DNA from: Microbacteriaceae bacterium | GTDB lineage: Bacteria > Actinomycetota > Actinomycetes > Actinomycetales > Microbacteriaceae | Assembly (NCBI GenBank): GCA_947443745.1 | Contig: CANEXL010000003.1 | Span: 1 to 61,777, forward strand | DNA: 61,777 nucleotides | Direction of reading: 5' to 3' | Shown: in pieces, positions 34,948-55,564 of the stretch | Position numbering within the stretch: the stretch's first letter is position 1 | Layout of the letters: every line of letters starts with the position of its first letter | Position numbers and translations under genes: made by a program | The notes under the pieces: model-generated | Seen by the model: only the letters and a program-made list of their open reading frames with translations | Databases searched by the model: none | Told to the model about the DNA's origin: nothing

Positions 34948-35838
34948 CTAGCGCTCGGGCTGAATGTCCAGATTCGAGTCGCGGGCTACGAGTAACAGCG
35001 TTGCGGCGATGTCAAGACCCGAACCGACTCCCGTATCGACGAGGCGCCGAAATTGCTTCTCGGTCTCGGCTACGGCTGGCATCACGGCTCCTGCTCCAAC
35101 CGCAAGGGAATGAATAAGGTCAAGATCTTTGAGCTGGGCTTCCGTAGCGAAAGTTGGGCTGAAATCAAGATTAACCAACGCCGGCGTCTTGTAGGTACTA
35201 AAGGGTGAACCCACCGCACTGTCGTTGATGAACTCCATCAGGGCGCCGCGCTTCACCCCGGATTTTTCCCCCAGCACAGCAACCTCAGAAAGCGTTTGCA
35301 TCACAACGGCGAGAAAGGCGTTCGTGCAGAGTTTCACGACGACAGCCTGCTGAGCATCTCCCACGACGTGATGACCGCGACCGATGGCGGCAAAGAACGG
35401 GCTGGCCTCATCGATTGCTTCGGCAGGACCCGACACGGCAAAAATGAGATTACCCGCGCGAACCACACCGGGATTCCCGCTCACGGGGGCGGAAATCATG
35501 GTCACTCCACGGTCGCGAGCAGCCTGTGCTGCCTCCGCCGCAGCCTCGGGGGAAACCGTCGAGCAGTCAATCCAGATGCGGGCATTTCCCTCGAGAACTC
35601 CATCCGCGGCCGACCAGAGGTCCTTCAGTGCCGTGTCGTCCAAGACCATGCTAAAAACAACACGTTCGGATGCCGCATCCGCGGGGCTTGCTGCGTGACG
35701 GGCACCCTTTTCTACGAGAGGGGCGCACTTAGCTGGCGTACGGTTCCAGACGGCGACGCCAATATCGGCTGCCAAGAGTCTTTCGACCATGGCCTCGCCC
35801 ATGCGACCGACACCGATCCAGCCAACTGTTTCCGTCAT
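34948..35838 (-). CDS. NAD(P)-dependent oxidoreductase, beta-hydroxyacid dehydrogenase / 3-hydroxyisobutyrate dehydrogenase family
   Basis: VGWIGVGRMGEAMVERLL, MISAPVSGNPGVVRAGNLIFAVSG, VKLCTNAFLAVVMQTLSEVAVLGEKSGV. Confidence 0.9.
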   Translation of the reverse strand: MTETVGWIGVGRMGEAMVERLLAADIGVAVWNRTPAKCAPLVEKGARHAASPADAASERVVFSMVLDDTALKDLWSAADGVLEGNARIWIDCSTVSPEAAAEAAQAARDRGVTMISAPVSGNPGVVRAGNLIFAVSGPAEAIDEASPFFAAIGRGHHVVGDAQQAVVVKLCTNAFLAVVMQTLSEVAVLGEKSGVKRGALMEFINDSAVGSPFSTYKTPALVNLDFSPTFATEAQLKDLDLIHSLAVGAGAVMPAVAETEKQFRRLVDTGVGSGLDIAATLLLVARDSNLDIQPER

Positions 35839-35886: not shown

Positions 35887-37254
35887 TTAGAGCAACAGCC
35901 CAATCGGGCTCTCAATGTGACGCACAAACGCGGCAAGCCAGGTTGCCGCAAGGGCCCCATCGACGGCACGGTGATCCGCAGAAAGCGTGACCTTCATGAC
36001 CTGAGCAATCGCCAGGGCACCGTCATTAACGACGGGCTGAGCGGATGCCGCCCCCACCGCCAAGATTCCGGACTGTGGCGGGTTCAAGATGGCCGAGAAT
36101 TCCTGCGTGCCAAACATGCCCAAGTTCGAGATGGCAAAGGAGCCACCTTCGAGCTCGTCCTGACGCAGTCGCTTCTCGCGTGCCTTGGCCACAAGTTCTT
36201 TAATCTCTGTGGTCACCTGGGTGATGCTGAGGTTGGCCACATCACGCAGAACGGGGGTCAGCAACCCACCATCTGTGGAGACAGCTACCGAAATATCGAT
36301 GGAGGAGTGCTGAAGCATTCCAGCGTCGGTCCAGGTCACGTTTGCTTCGGGCACCTCGACAAACGCGCGGGCGATGGCCTTGACGACGAGGTCGTTGACC
36401 GAAACCCGGATGGGGGACGCGTCATTAATCTGCGAGCGCAGGGCCAGCAGGGCATCCACTTTGCAATCCGCGGTGAGATAGAAGTGCGGAACCGTCGACT
36501 TGCTCTCGGTCAGGCGGCGAGCGATTGCCTTGCGCATCCCCGTGTGAGGAATAAGCGTTGGAGCATCAGGAACACCGGCAGCTCGAGTTGCCGCGGGAAC
36601 TGCGGTAGCGGCTGCGGCGACAGGCGCAACAGTAACCCCATCAAGGTCACGACGAACAATGCGTCCGCCAGGACCCGTTCCCTGAACGGCCGAGAGGTCG
36701 AGACCCTTGTCTTTGGCCAGCTTGCGCGCAAGAGGCGTCGCAAAACGGCGCTCACCGTTCGCCACAGCTGGAGCCGAAGCCGAAGTCGAAGCGACAGCAA
36801 CAGCAACAGCAGCAGGGGCAGGAACAACAGGTACCGCAACGGGAGCCGCAGCAGGAGACGCGACAGGGGCGACGGCCGTCACTGGGGTCACGACCGGCAC
36901 GGCAACCGGCACCACAGCAGGAGCTGCGGCGGGGGCAGTTTCAGCAACGGCAGCAACCGCAGCAGGTGCGGGACCGTCGTTGCCGAGGGCCGCATCCATC
37001 TCTGCGTCACCTTCGCCGGCCGCAATCACGACGGCGATGGGAGAACCGATTTCGCTGGAGTCACCTTCCTTGACGAGAATTCGGCCCAAAATTCCACTGA
37101 CCTCGGCGCTGTACTCGACAATCGCCTTCTCGGTTTCGAGTTCGGCTAGAGGCTCGCCAATGACGACGGCGCTCCCAATCTCCACGAGCCACTTCGAAAT
37201 TGCGGCCTCATCAGCACCGGCAAGGATGCTGGGCATGCGAACGACTACAGCCAT
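35887..37254 (-). CDS. 2-oxo acid dehydrogenase E2 (dihydrolipoamide acyltransferase)
   Basis: Lipoyl domain ELETEKAIVEYSAEVSG, Ala/Pro/Val linker, PSBD-like RRFATPLARKLAKDKGLDLSAVQGTGPGGRIVRRDL, catalytic KVTLSADHRAVDGALAATWL; start at 37254. Confidence 0.95.
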   Translation of the reverse strand: MAVVVRMPSILAGADEAAISKWLVEIGSAVVIGEPLAELETEKAIVEYSAEVSGILGRILVKEGDSSEIGSPIAVVIAAGEGDAEMDAALGNDGPAPAAVAAVAETAPAAAPAVVPVAVPVVTPVTAVAPVASPAAAPVAVPVVPAPAAVAVAVASTSASAPAVANGERRFATPLARKLAKDKGLDLSAVQGTGPGGRIVRRDLDGVTVAPVAAAATAVPAATRAAGVPDAPTLIPHTGMRKAIARRLTESKSTVPHFYLTADCKVDALLALRSQINDASPIRVSVNDLVVKAIARAFVEVPEANVTWTDAGMLQHSSIDISVAVSTDGGLLTPVLRDVANLSITQVTTEIKELVAKAREKRLRQDELEGGSFAISNLGMFGTQEFSAILNPPQSGILAVGAASAQPVVNDGALAIAQVMKVTLSADHRAVDGALAATWLAAFVRHIESPIGLLL

Positions 37255-37255
37255 C

Positions 37256-39448
37256 TCACTTACCCCCACCGAAGGCGGCGGCAACGCGCTGAAGTCCGAG
37301 AACGACTTCTTCGGTCTTCGCAATGGCAGCGCGCTCAAGAACTTTGGAAATGCTCGGTGCGGCTTCGCCACCGGTGACACGTTCAATGGGCTGATCGAGC
37401 CAGTCGAAGAAGCGGCGCTGAATCTCATCCGCAAGCCACGCACCGTAGGAGGTCCCGCGGGCACCTTGCTCAACAATCAAAACGGCATTTGTCTTCTTGA
37501 TGCTGGCGCCGATGGTGTCCCAGTCGAGGCTGGCGCGGTCGAGCCAGCGAAGGTCGATGACCTCGGCGTCGAGGCCGGTTTGCGCGACGGCTTCCAGGCT
37601 GTGCTTGACCATCGAGAGGTAGGTGAGAACGGTGACGTCCTTGCCCTCTCGACGAATCGCGGCCTTGCCGAGTTCAATCTGGTAGTCCAAATCATCGGTA
37701 GGAATCTCGCCTGACTCACCGTAGAGGTCGATGTGCTCGATCACGATGACGGGGTCCTTCAGCTCGAGCGCTGCGTTCATCAGCCCGATGTAGTCGAAGG
37801 GGGTTGACGCGGCAACAATGCGCCATCCGGGGTTCGTGGCCATGATGCCGGCGGGGTCCATGAGGTGCTGCGATCCGTAACCGGATCCCATCGCGACCTT
37901 GGTGCGCAGAACGAGCGGAACGGCTCCCGTGCCACCGAACATATGGCGGGCCTTACCGATTTGGTTGAAGACCTGGTCGGCGGCTACCCACATGAAGTCC
38001 GGGTACATGAACTCAATAACGGGGCGGAATCGACCGTCGAGGGCCACTCCACAGCCGAGGCCCGCGAAGGCGTTTTCGCTGATGGGGGTTCCCAAAATTC
38101 GACCGGGGAACTTGTCACTGAGGCCCTTTGTGGCGCCGTTTGTTCCGCCCTTGAGGCGGTGAATGTCTTCGCCCATGACAATGATGTTGTCGGATTGCTC
38201 CATGCGACGTTCCATGACGGCAGCGACGGCATCAATAAATTTGACGGTCGTCTTCGCGCCGGTGAACGTAGCCTCTTCTGCCGTGTGAGCACCCGCCAGT
38301 TCGGAGGCGTCCCCGCGAATACCAACATCAACGAAGCTGGGGTCTGGCCACAGGGCGGGCTTGATGCGGCGAACGCCGGGCTTTCCATCGGGATCCTGCT
38401 CGACGAGCTCGGTCAGCGCTAACGTCATGGCAGCTTGGGCTTGGGCCCGAACGGAATCAATGCCGGCATCATCGATGAGGCCGAGTTTCTTCATTTCGGC
38501 GGCTACTCGCTTGAGCGGGTCGCGCGCCAGCCATGCTTTTTCTTCTTCTTTGGAGCGGTATCCGAACGCACTGCCGGGGTAGGGGCCGTTCTGGTGGAAG
38601 AAGCGATAGACCTCGGCTTCGATGAGGGCGGGGCCCTTGCCGGAGCGCATGTACTCGCTGGCCTGCTCCATGGCGAGGTGAACGGCGAGGGGGTCCATGC
38701 CGTCGACGCGCCACGAGGGGAAGTTGAAGCCGAGGGCGCGGGCTGAGAGACGGGCCTCCTTGGTTGCTTCGGAGACGTGGGTCGAGACGGCGTATAAGTT
38801 GTTTTCGATGAAGAAGCACAGCGGGAGATCCCAAGCGGCAGCGAGGTTCATTGTTTCGAGAACCGAGCCGATGTTGGTGGCGCCGTCTCCAAAGTAGGAG
38901 ATCGAAAGGTCAGTGGTTCCCGCGTGCTTCTGAGCCCAGGCATTTCCGGCGGCCAGAGGCACGCCTCCGCCGACGATGGCGTTGGTGCCCAGGGCGCCCG
39001 CTTCGAGCCACTGAAGGTGCATGGATCCACCGCGGCCTTGGGAAAAGCCCTGGGACAAGCCGAGGATTTCAGCGAGAGTGCGCTGCAGGAGTGCCTGAAC
39101 GGTGTCGTTGACGAGCGCTGCCGGGTCAAAGCCCTCGGGAGCGACGTGTGTCAGTGCCTTGGCAAGAAATTGGTGGTGGCCGCGGTGAGAACCGTTGACG
39201 CCATCTTCGGTGCGCAATCCGACGCAGGAACCAACAGCCCCGCCCTCTTGGCCGATGCTGGAGTGGGCTGGGCCGTGCACGAGGCCTTCGCCAGCGAGTT
39301 CCAGAACGGATTCCTCGAAGGCGCGAATGAGGTGGAGTTGCCCGAGCATCGTCTTGAGCAGAGCAGGATCGGCGCTCTTCCAGTCAGCAGGGGTCGTCGT
39401 GAGTTCAACCCAGGGGGATCCGGGTTCGAGCTGCTTCGTACGGGGCAT
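37256..39448 (-). CDS. Fused alpha-beta E1 component of a 2-oxo acid dehydrogenase complex
   Basis: TPP-domain half (YFGDGATNIGSVLETMNLAAAWDLPLCFFIENN) followed by beta half (IIVMGEDIHRLKGGTNGATKGLSDKFPGRILGTPISENAFAGLGCGVALDGRFRPVIEFMYPDFM). Confidence 0.95.
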   Translation of the reverse strand: MPRTKQLEPGSPWVELTTTPADWKSADPALLKTMLGQLHLIRAFEESVLELAGEGLVHGPAHSSIGQEGGAVGSCVGLRTEDGVNGSHRGHHQFLAKALTHVAPEGFDPAALVNDTVQALLQRTLAEILGLSQGFSQGRGGSMHLQWLEAGALGTNAIVGGGVPLAAGNAWAQKHAGTTDLSISYFGDGATNIGSVLETMNLAAAWDLPLCFFIENNLYAVSTHVSEATKEARLSARALGFNFPSWRVDGMDPLAVHLAMEQASEYMRSGKGPALIEAEVYRFFHQNGPYPGSAFGYRSKEEEKAWLARDPLKRVAAEMKKLGLIDDAGIDSVRAQAQAAMTLALTELVEQDPDGKPGVRRIKPALWPDPSFVDVGIRGDASELAGAHTAEEATFTGAKTTVKFIDAVAAVMERRMEQSDNIIVMGEDIHRLKGGTNGATKGLSDKFPGRILGTPISENAFAGLGCGVALDGRFRPVIEFMYPDFMWVAADQVFNQIGKARHMFGGTGAVPLVLRTKVAMGSGYGSQHLMDPAGIMATNPGWRIVAASTPFDYIGLMNAALELKDPVIVIEHIDLYGESGEIPTDDLDYQIELGKAAIRREGKDVTVLTYLSMVKHSLEAVAQTGLDAEVIDLRWLDRASLDWDTIGASIKKTNAVLIVEQGARGTSYGAWLADEIQRRFFDWLDQPIERVTGGEAAPSISKVLERAAIAKTEEVVLGLQRVAAAFGGGK

Positions 39449-39505
39449 AACCACTTGCTCCTTTGTAAGGGGTCGCGATCTTTCGCTCCTTGACTGTAAC
39501 GTCAA

Positions 39506-39578
39506 ATGTATCCATTTGCAAGGGAGAATTCGGGGTTTACCTTTCTTTCATGACCGATTCGCGGAATAATGGATACAT
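39506..39578. promoter_or_regulatory. Inverted repeat pair atgtatccatt / aatggatacat in the divergent E1-VOC promoter region; candidate operator
   Basis: Exact 11-bp reverse complements at 39506-39516 and 39568-39578, 51 bp apart. Confidence 0.6.
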
Positions 39579-40128
39579 GAATGATGAATCCGCACCCGCA
39601 CCGGTGGGTATCCCCGGCCTTCGAGGCGCCGAACATATCGGCTTTACCGTTCCGTCGATTGAGCAGGCTCACGACTTTTTTGTGAACATCATCGGATGCG
39701 AGTTCGTCTACAAGCTCGGTCCGTGGGTTCGCGAGGATGACTGGTTCAGTGAACACCTCAACATTGACGCTCGAAGCGTCCTCAAAGAACTCCGGTTTTA
39801 CCGCTGCCACTTTGGCCCCAACTTTGAGGTCTTTGAATTTGAGGCACCAGACCAAGACCGCGAGCAGCCGCGCAACAGCGACGTCGGTGGCCATCACATT
39901 GCGTTCTACGTCGATGACATAGATGCGGCCGTCGCGTACCTGCTCTCGAATGGCCTCACAGTTCTCGGTGAACCTACGGCAAGCGGCGCCGCCTCCGAAG
40001 GGCAACGATGGGTCTACTTCCTCAGTCCCTGGGGAATGCAGTTCGAACTCGTCAGCTATCCGAACGGCAAGGCGTACGAGGCGACTTCTCCCGTAAAGTT
40101 GTGGCATCCCGCTCATCCTGCTGAATGA
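39577..40128 (+). CDS. VOC family (glyoxalase/dioxygenase-like) protein
   Basis: GAEHIGFTVPSIEQAHDFFVNIIGCEFVYKLGPW, GGHHIAFYVDDIDAAVAYL, RWVYFLSPWGMQFELVSYP. Confidence 0.9.
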   Translation: MNDESAPAPVGIPGLRGAEHIGFTVPSIEQAHDFFVNIIGCEFVYKLGPWVREDDWFSEHLNIDARSVLKELRFYRCHFGPNFEVFEFEAPDQDREQPRNSDVGGHHIAFYVDDIDAAVAYLLSNGLTVLGEPTASGAASEGQRWVYFLSPWGMQFELVSYPNGKAYEATSPVKLWHPAHPAE

Positions 40129-42459: not shown

Positions 42460-43662
42460 CTAGGAGGCGATGAGCCACAGCGCCAATGTCGCCAGAGGAA
42501 CAGTGATTGCCACGACGAGGATTCCCGCGAGCGCAAACTTCACCCACGAAACCTGAACGCCTAGCGCCGAGACCTTCTGGTACCAAAGCAGCGTGGCCAA
42601 GGATGCCCACGGTGTTATGAGGGGCCCGAGGTTCACCCCAATCAGTAGTGCCGCCAAGCGAACGGATGACGTGCCAACGGGCTCCAAGACCAGATAGGCC
42701 GGCAGATTGTTGATGCCATTGGCCGCCACGGTTCCAAGCGTTGACAACTGCAACAGGCTCAAAAAGTCCTGGCCACTACCGGCGACTGCGCCAACAAGAG
42801 TGGCCAATCCATTGACCTGAGCGGAATCAACCAACACGAACAATCCGAACGCGATAGCCACGGGACGCCACGGGACGAGCCCCAGAATGGCCGCCCCCGC
42901 TAGTGATCGTGGTCGGCGCACCGCACACACCACCAGGAGAACGACGGCGGCGCCCGTCGCAGGAATCCAGACCGGCCATCCGCTCACCAACAGGGGAAGC
43001 AAGATCACGACCACGACGGCACTGATCACAAGGAGCGGGCGATCGGTCACGGGGGCGACCTTCGGAAGAACATACCTGCCGCGAAGCGAGCGCCGAAACA
43101 TCAGGCTCAAGATGACAATTGGAACGAGGATGCCCACCAGAGCCGGGGCCCACAGGAGAGCCGCGAAGCCAGCGGGCCCATCCGTCGCCATCTTCGTTTC
43201 GGCCAGCAGGTTCGTGAGGTTGGATACTGGCAACAAGAGGGATGCCGTGTTCGCGAGCCAGATGGTGGCCAACGCAAAGGGCATCGGCGGCATGCCTACG
43301 TGCATGGCAAGCAACACCACGACGGGAGTAACGAGCACCGCGGTCGTGTCCAGCGATAAAAAGATGGTGCTGAGCGATGCCAAGGCGAGTACGAACAGCC
43401 ACAGAATCCAGCGTTGGGCGAGACCCCACTGGGCCAAGCGCTGCACAAGAGCGGCAAAAACTCCTGCCGCCGCCGCAAGCTCGGTAACCACCGTGATCGC
43501 GATGACAAAACCGAGCACCGGAACAACACGGTCGGTCAGCTCGACGAACGCCGACCAGGGCAAGACACCGGTGGCTACGACGACCGCAGCCGCAGAAACT
43601 AACGCCGCCGCCGCAATCAATCCGCGGCGTGTGTTGGGGGGCATCGAGACAGTGGGGGCCAT
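42460..43662 (-). CDS. SLC13/ArsB-like ion transporter
   Basis: ~10 TM; FLSLDTTAVLVTPVVVLLAMH, LLPVSNLTNLLA, AANGINNLPAYLVL. Confidence 0.8.
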   Translation of the reverse strand: MAPTVSMPPNTRRGLIAAAALVSAAAVVVATGVLPWSAFVELTDRVVPVLGFVIAITVVTELAAAAGVFAALVQRLAQWGLAQRWILWLFVLALASLSTIFLSLDTTAVLVTPVVVLLAMHVGMPPMPFALATIWLANTASLLLPVSNLTNLLAETKMATDGPAGFAALLWAPALVGILVPIVILSLMFRRSLRGRYVLPKVAPVTDRPLLVISAVVVVILLPLLVSGWPVWIPATGAAVVLLVVCAVRRPRSLAGAAILGLVPWRPVAIAFGLFVLVDSAQVNGLATLVGAVAGSGQDFLSLLQLSTLGTVAANGINNLPAYLVLEPVGTSSVRLAALLIGVNLGPLITPWASLATLLWYQKVSALGVQVSWVKFALAGILVVAITVPLATLALWLIAS

Positions 43663-43777: not shown

Positions 43778-45172
43778 TTAGGAGACGGGACGGTTCCCGA
43801 TGTTGTTGAACGTTGTCGTGTTCAGGTGCGACTGAGGGTCGCGAAGGGTCGGCAACTCGGCACCAACGGCAAAGTACCGCTGGCCTGCTACGAGGAGTTT
43901 TTCAGCCGGGAACTTGGTGATGACCTCGCACCCGGTGGCGGTCACGACGACCTCCTCCTCGATGCGCGCGGCGCCCCAGCCATCCTTCGATGGCCAGTAG
44001 GTTTCCAGCGCAAAGACCATTCCCTCTTCGAGAACTTCGGGGTGATCAAGTGAAATCATGCGGCTGAAGATGGGGCGCTCCCAAATGGAGAGACCGACGC
44101 CGTGGCCATACTGAAGGGCAAACGCTGCTTCTTCGTTTTCGAAACCGAACTCCTGGGCCTTGGGCCACACCTTGACAATGTCGGCCGTGGTGGCGCCGGG
44201 GCGAACCAGCGCAATTGCGCGGTCCATGTATTCACGGCAGATTCGGTAGGCCTCGTTCTGACCGGGCGAAGCACTTCCAATGGCAAAGGTGCGGTAGTAG
44301 CAGGTGCGGTAGCCCTGGTAGCTGTGCAGGATGTCGAAGAACGCGGGGTCGCCCGGGCGCAGCATGCGGTCGCTGAAAACGTGAGGGTGCGGCGAGCAGC
44401 GCTCGCCGGAGATGGCGTTAACGCCCTCCACGTGCTCGGAGCCGAGGTCGTAGAGCGTCTTGGCAACGAGTCCAACGGTTTCGTTCTCGCGAACTCCGGG
44501 GCGCAGAAACTCGTAGAGCCGGTCATACGCGGCATCCACCATCGAGGCAGCTGTGGTGAGGAGCGTGATTTCATCCACGGTCTTGATGCGGCGCGCTTCG
44601 AGGAAGACCTGCTGCCCGTCAACCACATTGAGGCCCTTGGCCTGAAGAGCGAAGAGCACGGGAGGTTCGATGATGTCCACACCGAGGGGCTCGTTCTCAA
44701 GGCCGTACTGCTTCAAGACATCGTAAATTTTGTCGGCAACAGCCTCAGCCTGACCCGCCTTCGGGCTGATGGCACCGCGCAGTGTTGAAATGCCGGCGCG
44801 GGCGCCAACACCAATTTTGTGGGCGCCGTGATGGGGCTCGTGACCGTTCAGTCCTGAGTCGACATGAGAGTGGGCTGCGTCGAGCCACGGGGTGTGCAGC
44901 TGGTGGTGTTTCGCTGCCGAGCCAAAGTCCCACAGCACAGGCTCGCCACCCTGGGGAAGAAGGGAGAAGCGAATCATCTTGTCCATGGCCCACGTGCCGA
45001 TGTGGGTCGAGGTCATGTACCGGATGTTGTGAAAATCGAACGTCAACAAGGACCCGAGGTCAGACTTGACGAGCTCAGCCTTGAGCCGCCCGAGACGCTC
45101 TTCACGCAGTCGATTGTTGTCGAGTCGATTTTCCCAATCGACGTTGTTCAATCCAAAGGTAGGGATCACCAT
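43778..45172 (-). CDS. M24-fold (creatinase/DddP-like) hydrolase or lyase
   Basis: N-terminal DFHNIRYMTSTHIGTWAM; C-terminal pita-bread motifs GDPAFFDILHSYQGYRTCYYRTFAIG, YGHGVGLSIWERP, FALETYWP, ARIEEEVVVT. Confidence 0.85.
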   Translation of the reverse strand: MVIPTFGLNNVDWENRLDNNRLREERLGRLKAELVKSDLGSLLTFDFHNIRYMTSTHIGTWAMDKMIRFSLLPQGGEPVLWDFGSAAKHHQLHTPWLDAAHSHVDSGLNGHEPHHGAHKIGVGARAGISTLRGAISPKAGQAEAVADKIYDVLKQYGLENEPLGVDIIEPPVLFALQAKGLNVVDGQQVFLEARRIKTVDEITLLTTAASMVDAAYDRLYEFLRPGVRENETVGLVAKTLYDLGSEHVEGVNAISGERCSPHPHVFSDRMLRPGDPAFFDILHSYQGYRTCYYRTFAIGSASPGQNEAYRICREYMDRAIALVRPGATTADIVKVWPKAQEFGFENEEAAFALQYGHGVGLSIWERPIFSRMISLDHPEVLEEGMVFALETYWPSKDGWGAARIEEEVVVTATGCEVITKFPAEKLLVAGQRYFAVGAELPTLRDPQSHLNTTTFNNIGNRPVS

Positions 45173-45270: not shown

Positions 45271-45924
45271 CTATTTACGAGAGCAAACTCCGTGAACAAA
45301 CCAGATTCCCGTGGAAACGACGTCCCCTCGATTCGCAAAGATGTGGGGAATAGACGAATCGAATCCGAGGGACTGCCCCGCTTGCAGACTGAACACCTCG
45401 CCACCGACGGTGACCTCGAGTTCTCCCTCCAGGACGTAACCGTACTCGTACCCCTCGTGCGTCAACATTTCACCGCTGGCTGTCGACGTGGATCCTGGGG
45501 CGTAGGAGATTTTCATGAAGTTAACGCCTGCTTCTGGCGTCGCCGCCAGACGTTGCCATTTGACGCCCTCGGCCATATCAAGGGCGGCACGATGGTCCGG
45601 ATGAATCAGTGAAATTCGGTTTGTGTACTCGGACGTATTCCACACCTGTGAGGGATTAGTGAAGTCGCTTCGTTCCGTAATCTCATGAGCCTGAGCCCCG
45701 GTTTCGGGCACAATATCGTCGTCTTCTGAGGGTCCGAACAGATCATCGATTTGAACACCGAGCAACTTAGAAAAGGAATATAGAGTCGCTACCGAGGGCT
45801 GAGATTTGCCGTTCTCTATTTGGGAGAGGAACGAAGGCGAGACGCTCGCCATCCGGGCGAGCTCACGAAGAGACAGGCCTCGTTCGGTGCGTACTTCTTT
45901 GAGGCGGTGGCCGATGTTATTCAT
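45271..45924 (-). CDS. XRE-family regulator with C-terminal cupin domain
   Basis: IGHRLKEVRTERGLSLRELARMASVSPSFLSQIENGKSQPSVATLYSFSKLL; cupin EMLTHEGYEYGYVLEGELEVTVGGEVFSLQAGQSLGFDSSIPH. Confidence 0.95.
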   Translation of the reverse strand: MNNIGHRLKEVRTERGLSLRELARMASVSPSFLSQIENGKSQPSVATLYSFSKLLGVQIDDLFGPSEDDDIVPETGAQAHEITERSDFTNPSQVWNTSEYTNRISLIHPDHRAALDMAEGVKWQRLAATPEAGVNFMKISYAPGSTSTASGEMLTHEGYEYGYVLEGELEVTVGGEVFSLQAGQSLGFDSSIPHIFANRGDVVSTGIWFVHGVCSRK

Positions 45925-46064
45925 GCGTCATTTCCTAGACGTAAAAGCGAGTGTGTGCTCTCCCACGTCGAAGAGAACACCACTGTTCAGTTATATAGAA
46001 CGTTATCGTATGCTGGATGGGACGGTCGAGAAAATTAGACCGCGACTCTCAACGAGGAGAAGAA

Positions 46065-46589
46065 GTGTCATACAAGGGTCTGCATCACACTGGGATTATC
46101 GTCAAGAATCTCGATAGATCTATCTATTTTTACCATGACGTCTTGGGCTTGAAGTTCTCAAATGAACCCAGCCCCTGGTTTGAAGGCGAAGGGTTAGCGA
46201 GCGCGGTTGGCGTTCCAGAGGCCCGCCTTCGTCAAGTCTGTCTGCTGGCGAGTGAGGATTCAATCCTTGAGCTCTTGGAATATTCGAACAGGCCTGCCGA
46301 CAACGACACCGCGATTCAGCAAAACTACCTCGGAGCAATGCACGTTGCGCTGCAGGTGGATGACATTTATGCAAAGAAGGCCGAGCTCGAAGCCAAGGGC
46401 GTCGTGTTTCTTTCCGACGTGAATGTGGTCGACGAAGGAGTTCTCAACGGATGGCGCTGGGTGTACTTCAATGACCCCGACGGAATTCCCTTAGAACTCG
46501 TGCAAATCGCGCACTACCGTGAAGAGGAACGCCGGGCCAACATTGCCACGTACCTTGCGACGCGTCCGCCACTCGAAGACCTTCTCTAG
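46065..46589 (+). CDS. VOC family protein
   Basis: YKGLHHTGIIVKNLDRSIYFYHDVLGLKFSNEP, GWRWVYFNDPDGIPLELVQ; GTG start with RBS at 46065 preferred. Confidence 0.9.
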   Translation: MSYKGLHHTGIIVKNLDRSIYFYHDVLGLKFSNEPSPWFEGEGLASAVGVPEARLRQVCLLASEDSILELLEYSNRPADNDTAIQQNYLGAMHVALQVDDIYAKKAELEAKGVVFLSDVNVVDEGVLNGWRWVYFNDPDGIPLELVQIAHYREEERRANIATYLATRPPLEDLL

Positions 46590-46665: not shown

Positions 46666-47727
46666 TTAGGAAACTTTCGCGAGAACCTTCATCTGGTTGC
46701 CGTTGGGGTCAATCAAGACATCGAATGCCTGAGTGACCACGTCTTCAAGTGACACAATCGAGCTCACAACCTTTTCGATCGGGTACTTGCCTGAAGCCAC
46801 GAGACGGATGATGCGGGGCCAGTCAGTGATTTTGTAGCACCAGTTGCCCACAATGGACAGGTCCTTCTCCGAGAGCATCATGGCGTCAAACTCCGCAGGC
46901 TTGGTGTGCAGACCCGTCTGAGCGATACGACCACTGCGGCGCGTGTACTTAATACCCGCAGCGAGGCCCTGAGACGTTCCCGAGCACTCGACCGTGAGAT
47001 CGAAACCTCGACCTCGGGTCAGCTCCATGATGACGTCGTCGAAGTTCTCATCGCGTGGGTTCACGACCGGGCCAATGCCCAGCTTGCGGGCAAACTCGGC
47101 ACGTTCAGGGTTGGGCTCAGAGATGATGACCTGAGCTGCTCCGAGGGCGTTCGCATAGAGAGCCGAGAGGCCACCGATGGGGCCTGCGCCCGTGACAAGA
47201 ACAAAGTCACCACCCGAGACACCGACCCGGTCGACACCGTACGCGGCAACGGCAGCGGGCTCAATGACAGCACCGGCAATATCCGACACCTCATCGGGCA
47301 GCACGGCGACTTGGTACTCCTTGAGAACGGCGAATTCACCGAGGCCACCCGTCTCCGCGCTCAAGCCCGTGCAGGCAAAGAGGCGACAGAGGTGACCGCG
47401 GCCGGTGCGACATTCATCACACCGACCACAGACTATGGCGGGCATAATCGATACCCGGTCGCCGACCTTGACGTCCTGAACAGCCTTGCCGATCTCGACG
47501 ACGCGGGCCGAGAACTCGTGACCGAACGTCTGAGGAAGAGTGGCTCCCGTCAGTGGGTGTGGGTGGACGCACGTGACAATTGGGCCAACGGTGTACTCGT
47601 GGAGGTCGGTTCCACAGACTCCGCAATACATGACCTGAACGAGAACTTCGTCATCGAACCCAATCTGGGGAACAGCAATGTCCTCAACGCGGATATCTAG
47701 TTTTCCGTAATAGCGAGCAGCCCTCAT
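46666..47727 (-). CDS. Zinc-dependent MDR alcohol dehydrogenase, 2,3-butanediol/sorbitol dehydrogenase-like
   Basis: MYCGVCGTDLHEYTVGPI, TFGHEFSARVVEIG, CGRCDECRTGRGHLC. Confidence 0.9.
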   Translation of the reverse strand: MRAARYYGKLDIRVEDIAVPQIGFDDEVLVQVMYCGVCGTDLHEYTVGPIVTCVHPHPLTGATLPQTFGHEFSARVVEIGKAVQDVKVGDRVSIMPAIVCGRCDECRTGRGHLCRLFACTGLSAETGGLGEFAVLKEYQVAVLPDEVSDIAGAVIEPAAVAAYGVDRVGVSGGDFVLVTGAGPIGGLSALYANALGAAQVIISEPNPERAEFARKLGIGPVVNPRDENFDDVIMELTRGRGFDLTVECSGTSQGLAAGIKYTRRSGRIAQTGLHTKPAEFDAMMLSEKDLSIVGNWCYKITDWPRIIRLVASGKYPIEKVVSSIVSLEDVVTQAFDVLIDPNGNQMKVLAKVS

Positions 47728-50228
47728 GCGGACACAGCACCTTTCTTGCGCGTTCGTGCAACTGAATAGAGAATGGCGGCCACAAGAATGAGGAGGCCTT
47801 GGAATCCGTACTGCCAGACCTCATCGAGGCCGAGGAACACGATGGCGTTGAGAGCTTGAATCAACAGAACAGCACCAAGAAGCGTGCCGACAAAGTTTCC
47901 GCGGCCACCCAGAAGGCTCGTGCCACCAAGAACGACGGCCGTGATGCTCGTCAGCGTGTAACCCACTCCTTGAGCGGCGTCGCCAACCCCAAGCTGGGCG
48001 ACCAGCATGATGGCACCGAGGAAGGCAAAGAACGACGTCGTCATGTAGGCCAACACAACTGTTCGGTTCACGTTGACACCGACGCGGCGGGCGGATTCTT
48101 CGTCGGAACCCGTTGCCCTCAGTTGCCATCCCCAACGCGTCTTGCGCAGAGCAAATTCCAGGCCTATTGCAAGTGCGGCGAGAACGATAAAGGCCACAGG
48201 AATAGGGCCGACCTTGGCCTTAAGCGCTCCCGTGATGACCGCGTTCATGTAGCCGCCGGGCTCCCCGCGCAAGAGAAAGCTGAACCCCTGCAAACCAATG
48301 TAGAGCGTTAGTGTTGCGGCGATAGCCGTGAACTTAGCAAAGCGAATCAATGATCCGTTGACGAGACCCACGACGACGCCCACGACGAGCATCAGAACAA
48401 ACCCAATGAGAATCGTGAGACCGGAGCTGTCATCGTTGATAAAGAAGGAAGCGATGACGACCAGCAGCCCAGCGAGCGGACCAACGGAAAGGTCGATGCC
48501 GCCAATAAGGAGTGCCACTGTCTGACCGAGGGCAATGAAGCCCAGGGACGTTGCCAGCATCAGCATGGAGTTGATGTTGAAGTCCGCAAGATAGCGGCCA
48601 TTTTGGCTCAAAATGAAAGCGCCGAGAAGGACAATGACACCGATGAGGAGCGAGGAAGGGGCGTAGTCACCTTGGAGGAATCGACCGAAACCCGTTTGGC
48701 GAGGTGCGCGAGTCCGCCCGACAACCTTCACTGATTCGGTGGTGGAACTCACGGCAGCCCGAATCATATTTGTTTCGGTGAGGTTTGCGTCTTGCAGAAC
48801 CTCAACGACGTGTCCACGTGACATCACGATGACGCGATCGCAGAGTCCCTCAAGTTCCATAGCGTCGGAAGAGTTGACGACGACAGGGATCCCCGATGCG
48901 GAGACCTCGCGCAAGATCCTATAAATCTCCGCTCGAGCACCAACGTCAACACCCTGCGTGGGTTCATCCGCAATCAGGATGCGGGGCTCAGAAAGCAGCG
49001 CTCGGGCCATCACCACTTTCTGCTGGTTTCCACCGGAGAGTGAGGACACAAGGCTCTCAGGGGAAGCCGTTTTGACATCGAGTTCGGCGAGGGAGTGAGC
49101 CACGGCGTCGCGTTCGCGCTTGTCGCTGACGAAGAACAATCGCTTAAACTTCGTGAGGGCTGAGACGGCCGCATTTTCGCGAACGCTGAGGGTCATCATG
49201 AGGCCGTCGTGGTGACGATCGGCGGGCAGGTACCCCGAGTCCTTCAACAGGTCCTTGGGCGTCATCGTCTTCCCGCCGATGTCGACCGTTCCAGTGAAGG
49301 ATTCGAGACCAGCGAGAGCCTTCATGAATTCGGACTGGCCGTTACCGGCGACGCCGGCGACACCAAGAATTTCGCCACGCTTGACGGTGACGGTGATGTC
49401 CTTAAAGCCCGGTCCGGTGAAGTTTGTCAGCGAGAGGTTCACTTCTCCGGTGGTGGCCGCTGTCGCCTTGGGCGGGAAGGTGGACTCGAGCTTGCGGCCG
49501 ATGATGAGCGCCAGGAGGTCCTCATCCGTCACCTTATCGACATCGAGAACGCCACGTAGTTTTCCATCGCGAAGAACCGTGACTCGATCCGCGAGTTCGC
49601 GCACTTCGGCGAGGCGATGGGTGATGTACACCACCGAGGTTCCCTGGGCGACGGCGTCACGCACGCGGGAGAAGAGAAGGTCCACAGACTCGCGACCGAG
49701 GGGTGCCGTCGGTTCGTCGAGAATGAGAAGTTTGGGGTTGAGAGCAAAAGCCTTCGCAATTTCGAGAAGGTGCTTCTCGGACATCGTGAGGTCTTCGACG
49801 CGATCGGCAAGCGACACCGTCAGGCCAACGCCATCGAGCAGTCGAGTGGCAATCTTCTTGGCGTCGGCACGAGGCATAAAGATGGATGCGGGCAGGGCCA
49901 CGCGAAGGTTTTCTTCGACCGTCAGGTCGGGAAGGACTGCGGGGTGCTGGTAGACGATGGCGATACCGAGACGAGTCGCGATGGCGGGCGTCAAGACGGG
50001 AATTGATTCACCGGCAAAGACGATAGTGCCGCCATCGGGCTGAACTGTGCCTGAGGCCACGTTCATCAACGTTGATTTTCCGGCCCCGTTCTCTCCAAGC
50101 AGGGCATGGATCTCCCCGGGAAGCACGGTCAAGTCCACGTTAGAGAGCGCAGGAACGCTGGCATACAGCTTTGAAATGTTTTCGAGGCTGAGGGTGGGGG
50201 TTCCCTGCTGGGTATCGGTCTGGCTCAT
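47724..50228 (-). CDS. Ribose-type ABC transporter, fused tandem ATPase (RbsA-like) and permease (RbsC-like)
   Basis: LLGENGAGKSTLMNVASG, second ABC half with LSGGNQQKVVMARALLSEPRILIADEPTQGVD, then ~320-aa permease LIGGIDLSVGPLAGL...VLGGTSLLGGRGNFVGT; no stop between the domains. Confidence 0.9.
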   Translation of the reverse strand: MSQTDTQQGTPTLSLENISKLYASVPALSNVDLTVLPGEIHALLGENGAGKSTLMNVASGTVQPDGGTIVFAGESIPVLTPAIATRLGIAIVYQHPAVLPDLTVEENLRVALPASIFMPRADAKKIATRLLDGVGLTVSLADRVEDLTMSEKHLLEIAKAFALNPKLLILDEPTAPLGRESVDLLFSRVRDAVAQGTSVVYITHRLAEVRELADRVTVLRDGKLRGVLDVDKVTDEDLLALIIGRKLESTFPPKATAATTGEVNLSLTNFTGPGFKDITVTVKRGEILGVAGVAGNGQSEFMKALAGLESFTGTVDIGGKTMTPKDLLKDSGYLPADRHHDGLMMTLSVRENAAVSALTKFKRLFFVSDKRERDAVAHSLAELDVKTASPESLVSSLSGGNQQKVVMARALLSEPRILIADEPTQGVDVGARAEIYRILREVSASGIPVVVNSSDAMELEGLCDRVIVMSRGHVVEVLQDANLTETNMIRAAVSSTTESVKVVGRTRAPRQTGFGRFLQGDYAPSSLLIGVIVLLGAFILSQNGRYLADFNINSMLMLATSLGFIALGQTVALLIGGIDLSVGPLAGLLVVIASFFINDDSSGLTILIGFVLMLVVGVVVGLVNGSLIRFAKFTAIAATLTLYIGLQGFSFLLRGEPGGYMNAVITGALKAKVGPIPVAFIVLAALAIGLEFALRKTRWGWQLRATGSDEESARRVGVNVNRTVVLAYMTTSFFAFLGAIMLVAQLGVGDAAQGVGYTLTSITAVVLGGTSLLGGRGNFVGTLLGAVLLIQALNAIVFLGLDEVWQYGFQGLLILVAAILYSVARTRKKGAVSA

Positions 50229-50333: not shown

Positions 50334-51434
50334 TTACTTCTTGAGCAGTGCTGCCTGGTCAGCAGCAGGCATCTGTGCTGACAGGTAGATGTCGCCAGGA
50401 AGGCTCTTCTCGCACTGAACATCGTTGGGCTGCTGCGTACGCGAGTTCTCGAATACAGGAGCCTTGAAGATGCTTTCGGTAGGAATCGTTCCGCCCGAAG
50501 CCTTGGCAATTGCGTACTGAACGGCGAGACGAACGTTGTCGTTACCCGTTGCTACCGTGAAGAGGTTCATGGCAGGGTTAGCTGCCTTGTTGTCCTTGTA
50601 GAAGCAACCGAGGACGTTTCCGTCGGAGGTGACGAGCGAAGGAATCTGACGGCCAGCCTTGGTGAACTCAGGAAGCGCACCAACGAGCGAGGGCCCAAAG
50701 TCAGAAACGATGACGTCGATCTTGGGGTACTTTGCGATGTCGGCGGTCAGAACCTGCTGGGTCTTTGCAGGGTCCCAGTTGGTTACTTCGTAGGGCTGTT
50801 CGCCGATGAAGTTGTACTTTGCGTCGGTGAGGACCTTCTTCATGGCCGTTCCCTCGTCGTTGCCCTGGCTGTTTCCAGCAGGACCCGAAAGGAAGAGGAT
50901 GTTGCCGCCATCAGGGAACTGTGCCTTGATCTCGTTGGCCCAGTTGGTTCCGTCAGTGGTGAAGTCGGCGCCAATGAAAGCGTCGTAGTCGGTGCCAGGA
51001 GTTCCACCTGGGTTTACACGGTAAGGAACCGTGACAACGCCAGCAGTGTGAGCGCTCTGCAGTGCGGGAAGGATTGCCTTGCCAGCGTCTGCGAAGACGA
51101 TGAGAGCGTTAACACCCTTGGCAACCATGCCGTTGATGTCAGAGATTGCCTTCTGCGTGTCGCCCTGGCCGTCTGCGTACAGGTAGCTCGTAACGTTTGC
51201 GCACTTCTTGACTTCGTCAGCACCGGCAGCGGTGGTGACCAAGCGCCAGCTGTTTCCGCCGTAGCCGTCAACGAGGCCAACGGTGACCTTGTTGGGACCA
51301 CACCAGGCAGGAGCGCCTGCGACGGCTGCGCCTGTGGATGTGCTTGTCGATGCTGTAGTTGCACAGCCGGTCAACGCCAGGGCGCTGGCCGCTACGGCAA
51401 CCGCGAGCATCATGCTCTTCTTTGCGATTTTCAT
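50334..51434 (-). CDS. Ribose-type ABC transporter substrate-binding lipoprotein
   Basis: Lipobox ALALTGCATTAS; periplasmic-binding fold with KVTVGLVDGYGGNSWR; start at 51434 preferred. Confidence 0.9.
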   Translation of the reverse strand: MKIAKKSMMLAVAVAASALALTGCATTASTSTSTGAAVAGAPAWCGPNKVTVGLVDGYGGNSWRLVTTAAGADEVKKCANVTSYLYADGQGDTQKAISDINGMVAKGVNALIVFADAGKAILPALQSAHTAGVVTVPYRVNPGGTPGTDYDAFIGADFTTDGTNWANEIKAQFPDGGNILFLSGPAGNSQGNDEGTAMKKVLTDAKYNFIGEQPYEVTNWDPAKTQQVLTADIAKYPKIDVIVSDFGPSLVGALPEFTKAGRQIPSLVTSDGNVLGCFYKDNKAANPAMNLFTVATGNDNVRLAVQYAIAKASGGTIPTESIFKAPVFENSRTQQPNDVQCEKSLPGDIYLSAQMPAADQAALLKK

Positions 51435-51454
51435 GCGATTTTCCTCTCGGGTAA

Positions 51455-51474
51455 GTGTGACTACTTCGTCACAC
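51455..51474 (-). promoter_or_regulatory. Perfect 7-bp hairpin gtgtgac-tacttc-gtcacac upstream of the substrate-binding protein gene
   Basis: Direct reading, between permease stop (51510) and SBP start (51434). Confidence 0.45.
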
Positions 51475-51509
51475 AGTTCTCTGTCCAAGGACAGAAGTTT
51501 TTTGGGGGG

Positions 51510-52535
51510 CTAGCTCTGCACCGCCGCAGACGCGGCGTCTGTTCGAGCGGCGAAACGTGCCCGGACTTTCGCCCAGTTCACGGTGTAGATGGCGACGCCA
51601 ATGGCGAGGGCGGCAGCTTGCACAAGAGTTCTGACGGCGAAAGGGACACCCAGAGCCAGAACGAACTGATCGAGTTGGCCAAGAAAGATTGCGGCGACAA
51701 CGGTGGCTACGGGGAATCCGCGACCGCCAAGTAGGGAGGTCCCACCAAGCACAACGACAGCGACAGACGGCAGCAAGTAGGCATTACCCATGTAAGCCGT
51801 GGGTTGTGCGGTGATTCCGGCAAGGGTGATTCCAGCCGTGCAATAGAGCAGTTGAGCCCAGACGTAGGCCAATCCCTGGTGGGTGCGAACCCGCAATCCC
51901 ATTGCTTTGCCGGCAAAACTGTTGGCTCCCACAACCTCAAAGCGTCGACCTGCGACAGTTCTCTTGGTGATCAGTGACACCAGAATAAGAGCGGCGATGG
52001 CGAAGTACAGGGAGTTGGGCAAACCAAAGGTCGCCCCTCCACCAATACCGCGGAGCAGGTCAACAGTGGTTCTGGGGGTTCCCCCAGAAATACCGAGGAC
52101 GGCACCAAACAGCAACGCATTCATTCCGAGGGTGGCGATAATGGGGTTCAAGCCCAGCCGGCCCACCATCAGGCCATTGAGGATTCCGGCGCCCAGTGCA
52201 TAGGCAAACGCCAGGAGGACAGCGGCAAAGAGCTTGTTATTGTCGCCGTCTGGTTCATGGCTGACAATGACGATGGCCAGCGACACGGCACCCGGAATCG
52301 AGAGGTCGACACCACCCTGCTGCACGACCAACATCTGACCAAGACCGACTATTGCCAGCACGGCACCGAACTGAAGCATTCCAGAGACGGCACCGCCGGA
52401 AACGCTCGAAGGAGCCAAGGCCCAAGAGAAGGCCAGGAGAATCACCAGCGAAATCGCCATGGTGATGAGGCCCTTGGACGTACGCCGGGTGAGCTTCTTG
52501 GCAGATTGCCGCTCTACCACCATTGATTTCTCCAT
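51510..52535 (-). CDS. Ribose-type ABC transporter permease
   Basis: VQQGGVDLSIPGAVSLAI, NGLMVGRLGLNPIIATLGMNALLFG, VVVLGGTSLLGGRGFPVATVV. Confidence 0.9.
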   Translation of the reverse strand: MEKSMVVERQSAKKLTRRTSKGLITMAISLVILLAFSWALAPSSVSGGAVSGMLQFGAVLAIVGLGQMLVVQQGGVDLSIPGAVSLAIVIVSHEPDGDNNKLFAAVLLAFAYALGAGILNGLMVGRLGLNPIIATLGMNALLFGAVLGISGGTPRTTVDLLRGIGGGATFGLPNSLYFAIAALILVSLITKRTVAGRRFEVVGANSFAGKAMGLRVRTHQGLAYVWAQLLYCTAGITLAGITAQPTAYMGNAYLLPSVAVVVLGGTSLLGGRGFPVATVVAAIFLGQLDQFVLALGVPFAVRTLVQAAALAIGVAIYTVNWAKVRARFAARTDAASAAVQS

Positions 52536-52692: not shown

Positions 52693-53757
52693 TTAGGCGC
52701 GGCGAGGATCCACCAGAATTTTGCCCGTGGCTTGGCCCGTTGCGAGTCGTTCCAATCCGCCCTCCACGACGTCATCTAGGGAAACAACGCGATCGAGGAG
52801 GATGTCGGCCAGGGGATGCTTCGTCAGAAGTTCGAGGGCTTCCGGAAGGTCAGTGGCGCACACGTGAGCCACCGTGGTGATCGTGTTTATTTCGCGCAGG
52901 ACAACACCTGCAAGAACCAAGGACTGAGGGTTCTTGTTGAGGCCAACCAGAACAACAGTGCCGCCGAGTGCGGTCAGGGCATAGGCCCGTTCCGCGCCGC
53001 CATCAACACCCGACGTTTCGAAGACGACATCGAATCCGTCAGAAAATTTCTCGGTCAAGGTCGCTGATGTGTCACTGCGACTCAAGAGATGCGTGTTCTG
53101 AGCTCCCAACCGCGTCGCGACGTCGAGACGTGATTCATCGATATCCATGGCCGTCACAACGGCCCCGCGCCCAATCAGGGAGGCACAAATGAAGGAGCCG
53201 ATGGCCCCCATCCCCAGGAGCGCGACTCGTTGGCCCGGCTGAACATTTGCACGGCGAACGCTGTGAATGCCCACGGCCAAAGGCTGTGCCAACGCGGCGT
53301 TCTCATCGGAACACTCGGCCGGAATCTCAACGCAGATCGCCGCGGGGGCGGCAACGTACTCCGCTAGACCGCCATGAATGCTGAGGCCCAGTGTGTAATA
53401 GCGCTCACAGAGGTTCGTGCGACCCTGACGGCAGCGAGGGCAGGTGCCGCAGGAGACTCCCGCGCCGCAGGCAAGCCTCTTGCCCATCATGGCCTGCGCA
53501 TTAACGCCGGCCTCAACAACCTCGCCAATGAATTCATGGCCCAGTGTCGTCGGGCCGACGTGGCCGCTTCCGGGGTGGGCAACATTCAAGGGAACCATCA
53601 TTGGCCCCTTGGTGTACTCCGTGGAGTCAGTGCCGCACAGGCCGTTGAATCTGACCCGAATGAGAACATCATCCGGCCCGACCGTCGGAATGGAAACCTC
53701 CTCGACCCTGAGATCGTGCGGCTGATGCAAGACTCCCGCGCGCATGAGACCTTCCAC
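52693..53757 (-). CDS. Zinc-dependent MDR alcohol/polyol dehydrogenase
   Basis: FNGLCGTDSTEYTKGPM, TLGHEFIGEVVEAG, CGTCPRCRQGRTNLC, VALLGMGAIGSFICASL. Confidence 0.9.
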   Translation of the reverse strand: MEGLMRAGVLHQPHDLRVEEVSIPTVGPDDVLIRVRFNGLCGTDSTEYTKGPMMVPLNVAHPGSGHVGPTTLGHEFIGEVVEAGVNAQAMMGKRLACGAGVSCGTCPRCRQGRTNLCERYYTLGLSIHGGLAEYVAAPAAICVEIPAECSDENAALAQPLAVGIHSVRRANVQPGQRVALLGMGAIGSFICASLIGRGAVVTAMDIDESRLDVATRLGAQNTHLLSRSDTSATLTEKFSDGFDVVFETSGVDGGAERAYALTALGGTVVLVGLNKNPQSLVLAGVVLREINTITTVAHVCATDLPEALELLTKHPLADILLDRVVSLDDVVEGGLERLATGQATGKILVDPRRA

Positions 53758-53759
53758 GG

Positions 53760-54737
53760 CTATCGAGCCTCGGAGGTGACGTGAACCTTGATTTGAGACT
53801 TGTCGTTCATGACGGCGTCGAACGCATCCGCTGCCTGAGAGATATCAAAGGTGGATGTCACCAGTGGCGTCAGGTCTAGACCGGTGCGGGAGAGGAAACG
53901 AATCGTTTCGGGCCACACTCCGGGGGAGCCGATGATGCCCCGAATCTGTAGTTCCTTGGATTGGATCAGCCCCAGTCGTGCCGACGCAGACTTTCCCACA
54001 TCAATTCCGATGTTGACCAGCCGGGCCTGGAATCCGGCAACCTCAAGGGTCATGGCCATGGCTTCGGGGCGACCACTCGCCTCGAACACCACAGTGGCGC
54101 CAGCACCCCCGGTCGCGGCCATCACCTGATCGACAAAGTCGGGAGCCGTCGGATCAAGGATCAGGTCGGCACCAAGGCTCAGGGCAATGTCGCCACGCGC
54201 CGCCGAGGGTTCCGCCACAATCACGCGAACGCCTTTGGCAGATGCGGCGGCAATAACACCCAGGCCGATCGGGCCGGCTCCAAACACGACGGCGGTGTCG
54301 GAGGCGTCGAGGTTGTCGGCGCGAACAGTGGCGTAGTAGCCGCAGCTAAAGGGCTCGACGAGAGCGCCCTGCGTCCACGACACATTTTCGGGAAGGTGAT
54401 GAAGCCAAGAGTCCTTCGCGACAAAAAATTCGGCCATTGCTCCACTGATGCTGAAGCCGAAATGCTCCTGGCCAATGACGCATTCGCCCACAACGCGGTC
54501 ACCCTTGCGGAACTTTGTGACCCGTGAGCCAACGTCGATCACTTCGGCTGACCACTCGTGGCCCGGGATGACGGGGTACTCAAAGGGAATGATGTAGCGG
54601 CCGGCGAGCAAATCGATATCCGAGTGACAGATCCCCACGGAGCGTGCCGCCAGGAGGACTTCATCTTCACCAATGGTGGGAGCGTCGATGTCGTTCAACC
54701 GCATGACGTTCGGTGACATGAACTGTAGGGCTTTCAT
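53760..54737 (-). CDS. MDR family zinc-binding dehydrogenase
   Basis: SVGICHSDIDLLAGRYIIPFEYPVIPGHEWSAEVIDVG, VVFGAGPIGLGVIAAA. Confidence 0.9.
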   Translation of the reverse strand: MKALQFMSPNVMRLNDIDAPTIGEDEVLLAARSVGICHSDIDLLAGRYIIPFEYPVIPGHEWSAEVIDVGSRVTKFRKGDRVVGECVIGQEHFGFSISGAMAEFFVAKDSWLHHLPENVSWTQGALVEPFSCGYYATVRADNLDASDTAVVFGAGPIGLGVIAAASAKGVRVIVAEPSAARGDIALSLGADLILDPTAPDFVDQVMAATGGAGATVVFEASGRPEAMAMTLEVAGFQARLVNIGIDVGKSASARLGLIQSKELQIRGIIGSPGVWPETIRFLSRTGLDLTPLVTSTFDISQAADAFDAVMNDKSQIKVHVTSEAR

Positions 54738-54781: not shown

Positions 54782-55564
54782 TTAGACAAGCACCTTGCCG
54801 CCATCAATCATGATGGTTTGGCCGGTCATGTAGTCGGAGTCGTGGGAGGCCAAAAAGATGGCCGTACCCACAAGATCTTTGGGCTCGGCGGGCCGGCCCA
54901 TGAGGATGTCAGCCGAGAAATTTTCGATGGCTTCATCCGGCTTCGAGGATGACCCCATGGCGAGCAGATCTCGATCCAACGTGTCCCACAGGGGTGTTGC
55001 CACCACGCCGGGAGAAAACGAGTTGCACGTTATCCCGTGTTCGGCCATTGCCCGAGCCGTCGCTTGTGTGAGGGCATTGACCGCGAACTTGCTGGCGGAA
55101 TAGGGGGTGAAATCCGGGTAGCCCTGGCGCCCCGCAACGGAGGAAGTGTTGATGATTTTGCCGGATCTCTGACGAATCATGAACTTTGCAGCCTCCTGGG
55201 TGCAGATGAGAACACCGAGCGCATTGACATTCATGATGGCGTGCCAGTTGTCTTCCGTGATCTCCATGAACGGCATCGGCTTGTTGAACCCAGCGTTATT
55301 GAAAATGACATTCAGGCTGCCGGCCCAGGAGACAAATTCCGTCAGTGCCGCAGTGACATCTGCCCGCTGAGAAACATCAGCCTGCACGGCGAGAGCCTCG
55401 CCGCCAGCAGCATGAACTTCGGCGGTTACTTTTTGCGCCGCACCGATATCACGATCGAGGACACCGACGCGCGCGCCTTCGGTCGCGAAGGCGAGAGCAA
55501 ATGCTCGACCGATTCCGCTACCGGCCCCCGTCACAACGATGGACGATCCCACAAGTCGATCCAT
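54782..55564 (-). CDS. SDR family oxidoreductase
   Basis: IVVTGAGSGIGRAFALAFA, NVIFNNAGFN, TPYSASKFAVNALTQATARA, SDYMTGQTIMIDGG. Confidence 0.95.
   Translation of the reverse strand: MDRLVGSSIVVTGAGSGIGRAFALAFATEGARVGVLDRDIGAAQKVTAEVHAAGGEALAVQADVSQRADVTAALTEFVSWAGSLNVIFNNAGFNKPMPFMEITEDNWHAIMNVNALGVLICTQEAAKFMIRQRSGKIINTSSVAGRQGYPDFTPYSASKFAVNALTQATARAMAEHGITCNSFSPGVVATPLWDTLDRDLLAMGSSSKPDEAIENFSADILMGRPAEPKDLVGTAIFLASHDSDYMTGQTIMIDGGKVLV

Follow-up and report, generated by a model that had tools for sequence, protein, structure and literature searches.

A candidate M24 subfamily with cysteine in the bridging metal-ligand position, encoded in recurrent catabolic gene neighbourhoods

Enzymes of the M24 superfamily are taken to need five fixed carboxylate/histidine ligands, which in the dinuclear metallopeptidases form the set D, D, H, E, E; in creatinase, several of the canonical ligands are gone. 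In Escherichia coli aminopeptidase P (AMPP), Asp271 is a ligand to both metals and His361 is a proton-relay residue (PMC5774706), and mutation of Asp271 inactivates the enzyme (PMC10377022). The metal ligands of the M24B protein DddP, Asp307 included, are invariant within DddP (PMC4108388). We analyzed an M24-fold protein with cysteine in place of the second Asp, encoded in a 61,777-nucleotide stretch of a Microbacteriaceae contig (the window). A natural and deeply conserved Cys at the bridging position would mean that the M24 fold can host another metal chemistry or a covalent one, and that the ‘Xaa-Pro peptidase’ labels now on these genes need correction. No published description of the Cys-type M24 or its operon was found in the open-access literature searched. 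We propose, at about even odds, an undescribed M24 subfamily of Actinomycetota, Rhodobacteraceae plasmids and haloarchaea, in whose pita-bread site a Cys thiolate, either binding the metal or acting as nucleophile, would serve a non-peptidase bond cleavage supplying a thiamine/lipoate dehydrogenase complex.

The ORF encodes 464 amino acids, starts with ATG downstream of AGGAG (a good ribosome-binding site), and is conserved along its whole length in many genomes. Its product matches Peptidase_M24 (PF00557) with E=4.9e-40 and 138 bits against a gathering cut-off of 23, and is by predicted fold an M24 (M24B) pita-bread protein. The best PDB matches by sequence were solved prolidases and DddP, the latter being top by profile. 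When a predicted model was used for a fold search, DddP was again the best PDB match, and creatinase and ectoine hydrolase were also among the structural matches; thus, the kinship with DddP suggested in the initial annotation was recovered by both profile and fold. The AlphaFold2 model was weak (mean pLDDT 65; below 50 at residues 253–265 and 355–358) and, being of low confidence at the active site, served fold-level matching only.

HMMER alignments showed that the GYxxD(I/V)(T/S)RT of solved prolidases reads GYRTC291YYRT in the window protein, and since no gap separates the conserved GY from the conserved RT in these alignments, Cys291 takes the place of the bridging metal Asp. Misalignment was rejected, as this stretch aligns without gaps to PepQ-type enzymes and the profile alignment with DddP agrees on the column, with Cys291 opposite Asp307 of DddP. 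The five-ligand set is thus broken at its second Asp, with D280, H357, E390, and E405 retained in the other four positions. The second His of HGxGxxxHE, the shuttle residue corresponding to AMPP His361, is Trp364 in the window protein and His in a sister subgroup. The initial annotation had assigned the Cys, the Trp, and the retained ligands in the same way. It had also named another Asp at the second metal position as the finding that would overturn its reading; none fills the slot, and in the 118-row alignment described below no substitute Asp near it is invariant, a DxD like that of DddP being present only in some of the 35% groups.

To assess conservation, 80 loci from named genomes were fetched with peptide patterns containing neither the Cys291 nor the Trp364 column. 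In the close-relative set, most of which came from these pattern-fetched loci and a few from whole-genome searches, 87 of 87 ORFs read D-C-H-W-E-E, an agreement far beyond chance. A local mutation or sequencing error was rejected, the change being common to all of these close orthologues. The broader homologue set covered 398 actinobacterial genomes, Rhodobacteraceae plasmids, haloarchaea, and DddP-like and PepQ-like outgroups, and removal of near-copies left 118 non-redundant rows. Cys was present in 90/90 non-redundant rows with at least 36% identity; Cys and Asp types both occurred at 30–36%, and below 30% Asp was found in six of seven rows. In the Cys family of 101 rows, no variation occurs at C291, Y293, R294, H357, E390, or E405, and 99 rows keep D280, the 101/101 for column 291 being partly a matter of definition because the family is delimited by its Cys. 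The 16 Asp-type rows all have Asp at column 291, and none has Tyr at column 293. The independent facts are the zero exceptions at 36% identity and above, and the co-invariant Tyr293. As the Cys and the Tyr two residues on are both invariant in 101 members, they provide a signature, C-x-Y-R. The Tyr had been missed in the initial annotation.

Position 364 is occupied by Trp in 56 of the 101 members, by His in 35, and by Tyr in 10, so Trp marks only the actinobacterial subgroup of the window. Cys291 and Trp364 as a coupled pair were rejected for this reason: the Cys is family-wide and the Trp is limited to a subgroup. The initial annotation had also named orthologues mostly retaining Asp/His as a finding against it; orthologues keep Cys rather than Asp, and the Cys and Trp that it treated as a pair are not one. 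In the region of AMPP His243, the first active-site His, H262 and H264 are present in Trp-type and most His-type members and absent from most Tyr-type members. In a tree built with the trait columns left out, the Cys rows fell on one side of a branch whose support (45/71) was not strong, and the Trp-type rows formed a supported clade with the window protein. Cys-type M24 proteins were found in Actinomycetota, on Rhodobacteraceae plasmids, and in haloarchaea; a scan of a viral collection gave no relatives. Since the Cys is unchanged in 101 distinct members from actinobacteria to haloarchaea and the gene frequently lies in a nutrient-breakdown operon, the family looks like an unstudied enzyme group and not a random mutation.

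In the family members at loci L125 (2360–3739, minus strand) and L126 (203–1339, minus strand) the first Asp ligand is replaced by Trp and the HGxG region has an insertion, the six positions reading W-C-H-Y-E-E. L134 (7681–9075, minus strand) encodes a DddP-like protein with Cys in the same column, without Tyr293, and with Gly for the last Glu ligand, a separate route to Cys and a separate loss of the metal site. In L019 (8001–9353 and 12893–14107), L045, L088, and genome G010, Trp-type and His-type M24 copies lie close together on opposite strands, which suggests two non-redundant paralogues in one pathway.

Because four ligands are kept and a thiolate is added, a Cys-containing metal site is our first choice, at about even odds. 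The thiolate of Cys291 would join a site in which Cys/His/Glu/Glu/Asp bind either one soft metal or two (Zn or Fe), and which would polarise a small substrate, taken up from outside, at its carbonyl or hydroxyketone. The main rival, possible if on the unlikely side, is a metal-free creatinase-like enzyme in which Cys291 would be the nucleophile or act as acid/base with H357, the Glu residues, and Tyr293. Creatinase and ectoine hydrolase belong to the M24 superfamily and were structural matches here, loss of the bridging ligand weakens a dinuclear site, and the invariant Tyr293 is only two residues past Cys291; however, H357, E390, and E405 (101/101) and D280 (99/101; lost in L125 and L126) are retained as expected for metal binding, whereas creatinase has lost several of these ligands. 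The possibility of a non-catalytic pseudoenzyme serving as sensor or scaffold has a precedent in PID-5, whose aminopeptidase P-like domain is predicted to be inactive after ligand loss (PMC10377022). PID-5, however, lost several ligands at once, whereas the ligands kept here are at or near 100% across deep divergence and catabolic operons repeatedly include the gene as a full component, which makes such a role improbable. The retained ligands, together with the invariant C291 and Y293, argue for a working site.

DddP (PDB 4rzy, 4s00, 4s01, and 4b28; NF043017) shares with the window protein the M24B pita-bread fold, an alignment that runs the full length and takes in the N-domain with its NIRY motif, and the first Asp, the His, and both Glu ligands. 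On the other hand, the DddP ligands Asp307 and Asp297 (PMC4108388) are replaced by Cys291 and Leu282, the position of the catalytic Asp377 is Trp, His or Tyr in the Cys family, and the Cys-family operon is linked to E1/E2. No Asp was found at 363–364 and no Tyr aligned with DddP Tyr366, the exact column being uncertain owing to a one-residue gap, and the score against NF043017 was 121.1 bits with a cut-off of 600. Among characterised proteins DddP is the closest relative in both profile and fold, yet every defining DddP feature that was tested fails. As the hosts are also freshwater and soil actinobacteria and no acrylate genes were recognised, it is very unlikely that the protein is a DddP variant acting as a DMSP lyase, even with DddP as its closest solved homologue.

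Creatinase and ectoine hydrolase DoeA/EutD (1chm and 6twk) have in common with the window protein the M24 fold, an association with catabolic clusters, and probably non-peptidase chemistry. The window protein keeps more canonical metal ligands than creatinase, and its score against ectoine hydrolase DoeA (TIGR02993) was 61 bits (55.9 bits on the genome) with a cut-off of 613. At most, the protein would resemble DddP or creatinase in being an M24 enzyme that is not a peptidase. The prolidase/Xaa-Pro dipeptidase and aminopeptidase P enzymes (3q6d, 1pv9, and 1a16) share the fold and four of five metal ligands, prolidases are strong sequence matches, and public annotation names members ‘Xaa-Pro peptidase family protein’. 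A peptidase or dipeptidase of this type tolerating Cys as bridging ligand is nevertheless improbable: the score against archaeal Xaa-Pro dipeptidase PepQ (NF040821) was 80 bits with a cut-off of 630, mutation of Asp271 in the same column inactivates AMPP (PMC10377022), the second shuttle His is Trp in the window subgroup, and peptide-uptake genes were absent from the recurrent neighbour clusters identified.

Most catabolic genes of the window, listed below, recur with M24 in other genomes, in agreement with the catabolic, non-peptidase setting described in the initial annotation. E1 genes were present in 25/32 His-type, 30/91 Trp-type, and 0/13 Asp-type loci (Fisher test, p 1e-6 for His-type and 0.018 for Trp-type, values that overstate independence because the loci share ancestry), and in 21 of the 32 His-type loci E1 was directly beside M24 on the same strand. 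The order M24–E1alpha–E1beta–aldehyde dehydrogenase is common to actinobacteria and to plasmids of Phaeobacter and Tritonibacter (Rhodobacteraceae), the plasmid version having a lipoyl-domain gene in between. In the haloarchaeon Natrialba some 5 kb separate the E1 genes from the M24 copy, and in the window E1 is about 4 kb from M24, with other genes intervening; in most freshwater actinobacterial M24 loci E1 was not found within the flanks examined. Of the clues to what the M24 protein does, this link with E1 is the strongest.

Features of the window (coordinates refer to the full 61,777-nucleotide stretch)
Feature	Coordinates	Strand	Basis
Beta-hydroxyacid dehydrogenase, HIBADH/GlxR-like	34948..35838	-	Profile match
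E2 lipoyl acyltransferase, true start probably near 37254	35887..37476	-	Biotin_lipoyl, E3_binding, 2-oxoacid_dh
Fused E1 alpha/beta, thiamine-dependent 2-oxoacid/acetoin-type dehydrogenase	37256..39505	-	E1_dh, Transket_pyr, Transketolase_C; PDH E1 in PDB
VOC-family protein beside E1	39490..40128	+	Homologue in 19 loci
ArsB/CitMHS-type transporter	42460..43662	-	
M24B-fold protein, Cys family	43778..45172	-	D280, C291, Y293, H357, W364, E390, E405; ORF/translation, PF00557, 87/87 close relatives D-C-H-W-E-E
Trp364 codon TGG, second shuttle His slot (AMPP His361; near DddP Asp377)	44081..44083	-	Alignments; Trp only in actinobacterial subgroup
Tyr293 codon, invariant together with Cys291 (signature C-x-Y-R-[TSC])	44294..44296	-	101/101 Cys family vs 0/16 Asp-type
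Cys291 codon TGC, bridging-Asp slot (AMPP Asp271, DddP Asp307)	44300..44302	-	Alignments; invariant 101/101
XRE HTH + cupin regulator, directly upstream of M24	45271..45924	-	HTH_3, Cupin_2; homologue in 51/128 Cys-family loci
VOC-family protein	46017..46589	+	PF00903; homologue in 38 Cys-family loci, all Trp-type
Zn-dependent medium-chain dehydrogenase	46666..47727	-	Closest relative of known structure: (R,R)-butanediol dehydrogenase
Sugar-type ABC importer, ATPase fused to permease	47724..50228	-	ABC_tran x2 + BPD_transp_2
Periplasmic sugar-binding protein, ribose type	50334..51488	-	PF13407; ribose/monosaccharide binding proteins in PDB
ABC permease (BPD_transp_2)	51510..52535	-	Domain match
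Zn-dependent medium-chain dehydrogenase 2	52693..53757	-	Profile match
Zn-dependent medium-chain dehydrogenase 3	53760..54737	-	Profile match
SDR, acetoin-reductase-like, below curated cut-off	54782..55564	-	Profile match
PRISE-like SDR	55839..56906	+	
EboE TIM-barrel protein, stand-alone	56965..58179	+	390 bits, cut-off 250
Lipoate-protein ligase LplAB, would lipoylate an E2	59086..60135	+	NF053751 607 bits, cut-off 550

Like the acetoin/butanediol catabolic clusters, the M24 loci combine butanediol-dehydrogenase-like and acetoin-reductase-like enzymes with a thiamine/lipoate E1–E2 and an aldehyde dehydrogenase, an assembly whose logic appears by analogy to be that of acyloin catabolism. For the dehydrogenases, the best-matching named families score below their curated cut-offs. 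Unlike those clusters, the M24 loci add a sugar-type ABC importer and the M24 enzyme, and the window E1/E2 match pyruvate-type models best, again below curated cut-offs. The importer suggests a polyol- or sugar-like substrate; searches with the sugar-binding, VOC, and EboE proteins did not reveal its identity. The neighbourhood as a whole points to a polyol- or acyloin-type compound, with DMSP, creatine, ectoine, and dipeptides not favoured, and a new substrate for the M24 protein is plausible.

Our main reading, to which we assign a probability of about 0.5, is that the protein stands for an M24B subfamily, ancient and uncharacterised, whose closest kin is DddP. It would be an enzyme other than a peptidase, with Cys in its metal site, and would help to break down a polyol- or sugar-like compound that is imported and feeds a thiamine/lipoate dehydrogenase. 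The medium- and short-chain dehydrogenases would oxidise this polyol-like compound, and M24 would hydrolyse, eliminate or otherwise cleave the resulting keto or acyloin form, yielding an alpha-hydroxyketone or a 2-oxo acid. This product would be consumed by the thiamine/lipoate E1/E2 complex and converted to an acyl-CoA, and the aldehyde dehydrogenase would take the remaining aldehyde. Both the substrate and the sequence of the steps are guesswork. Through the recurrent operon, an unknown catabolic pathway of marine Rhodobacteraceae and of actinobacteria from freshwater and soil becomes directly accessible.

Some further features of the window were observed. The importer carries both ATPase domains and the permease in one 834-aa chain, and its homologues recur beside M24. 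The ArsB/CitMHS-type transporter gene lies directly downstream of M24, and no arsenic genes were noticed in the surrounding ORFs examined. Homologues of EboE were found in 28/128 Cys-M24 loci, nearly all of them Trp-type, and the PRISE-like SDR, of the progesterone 5-beta-reductase/iridoid synthase type, recurs in 18 Cys-M24 loci.
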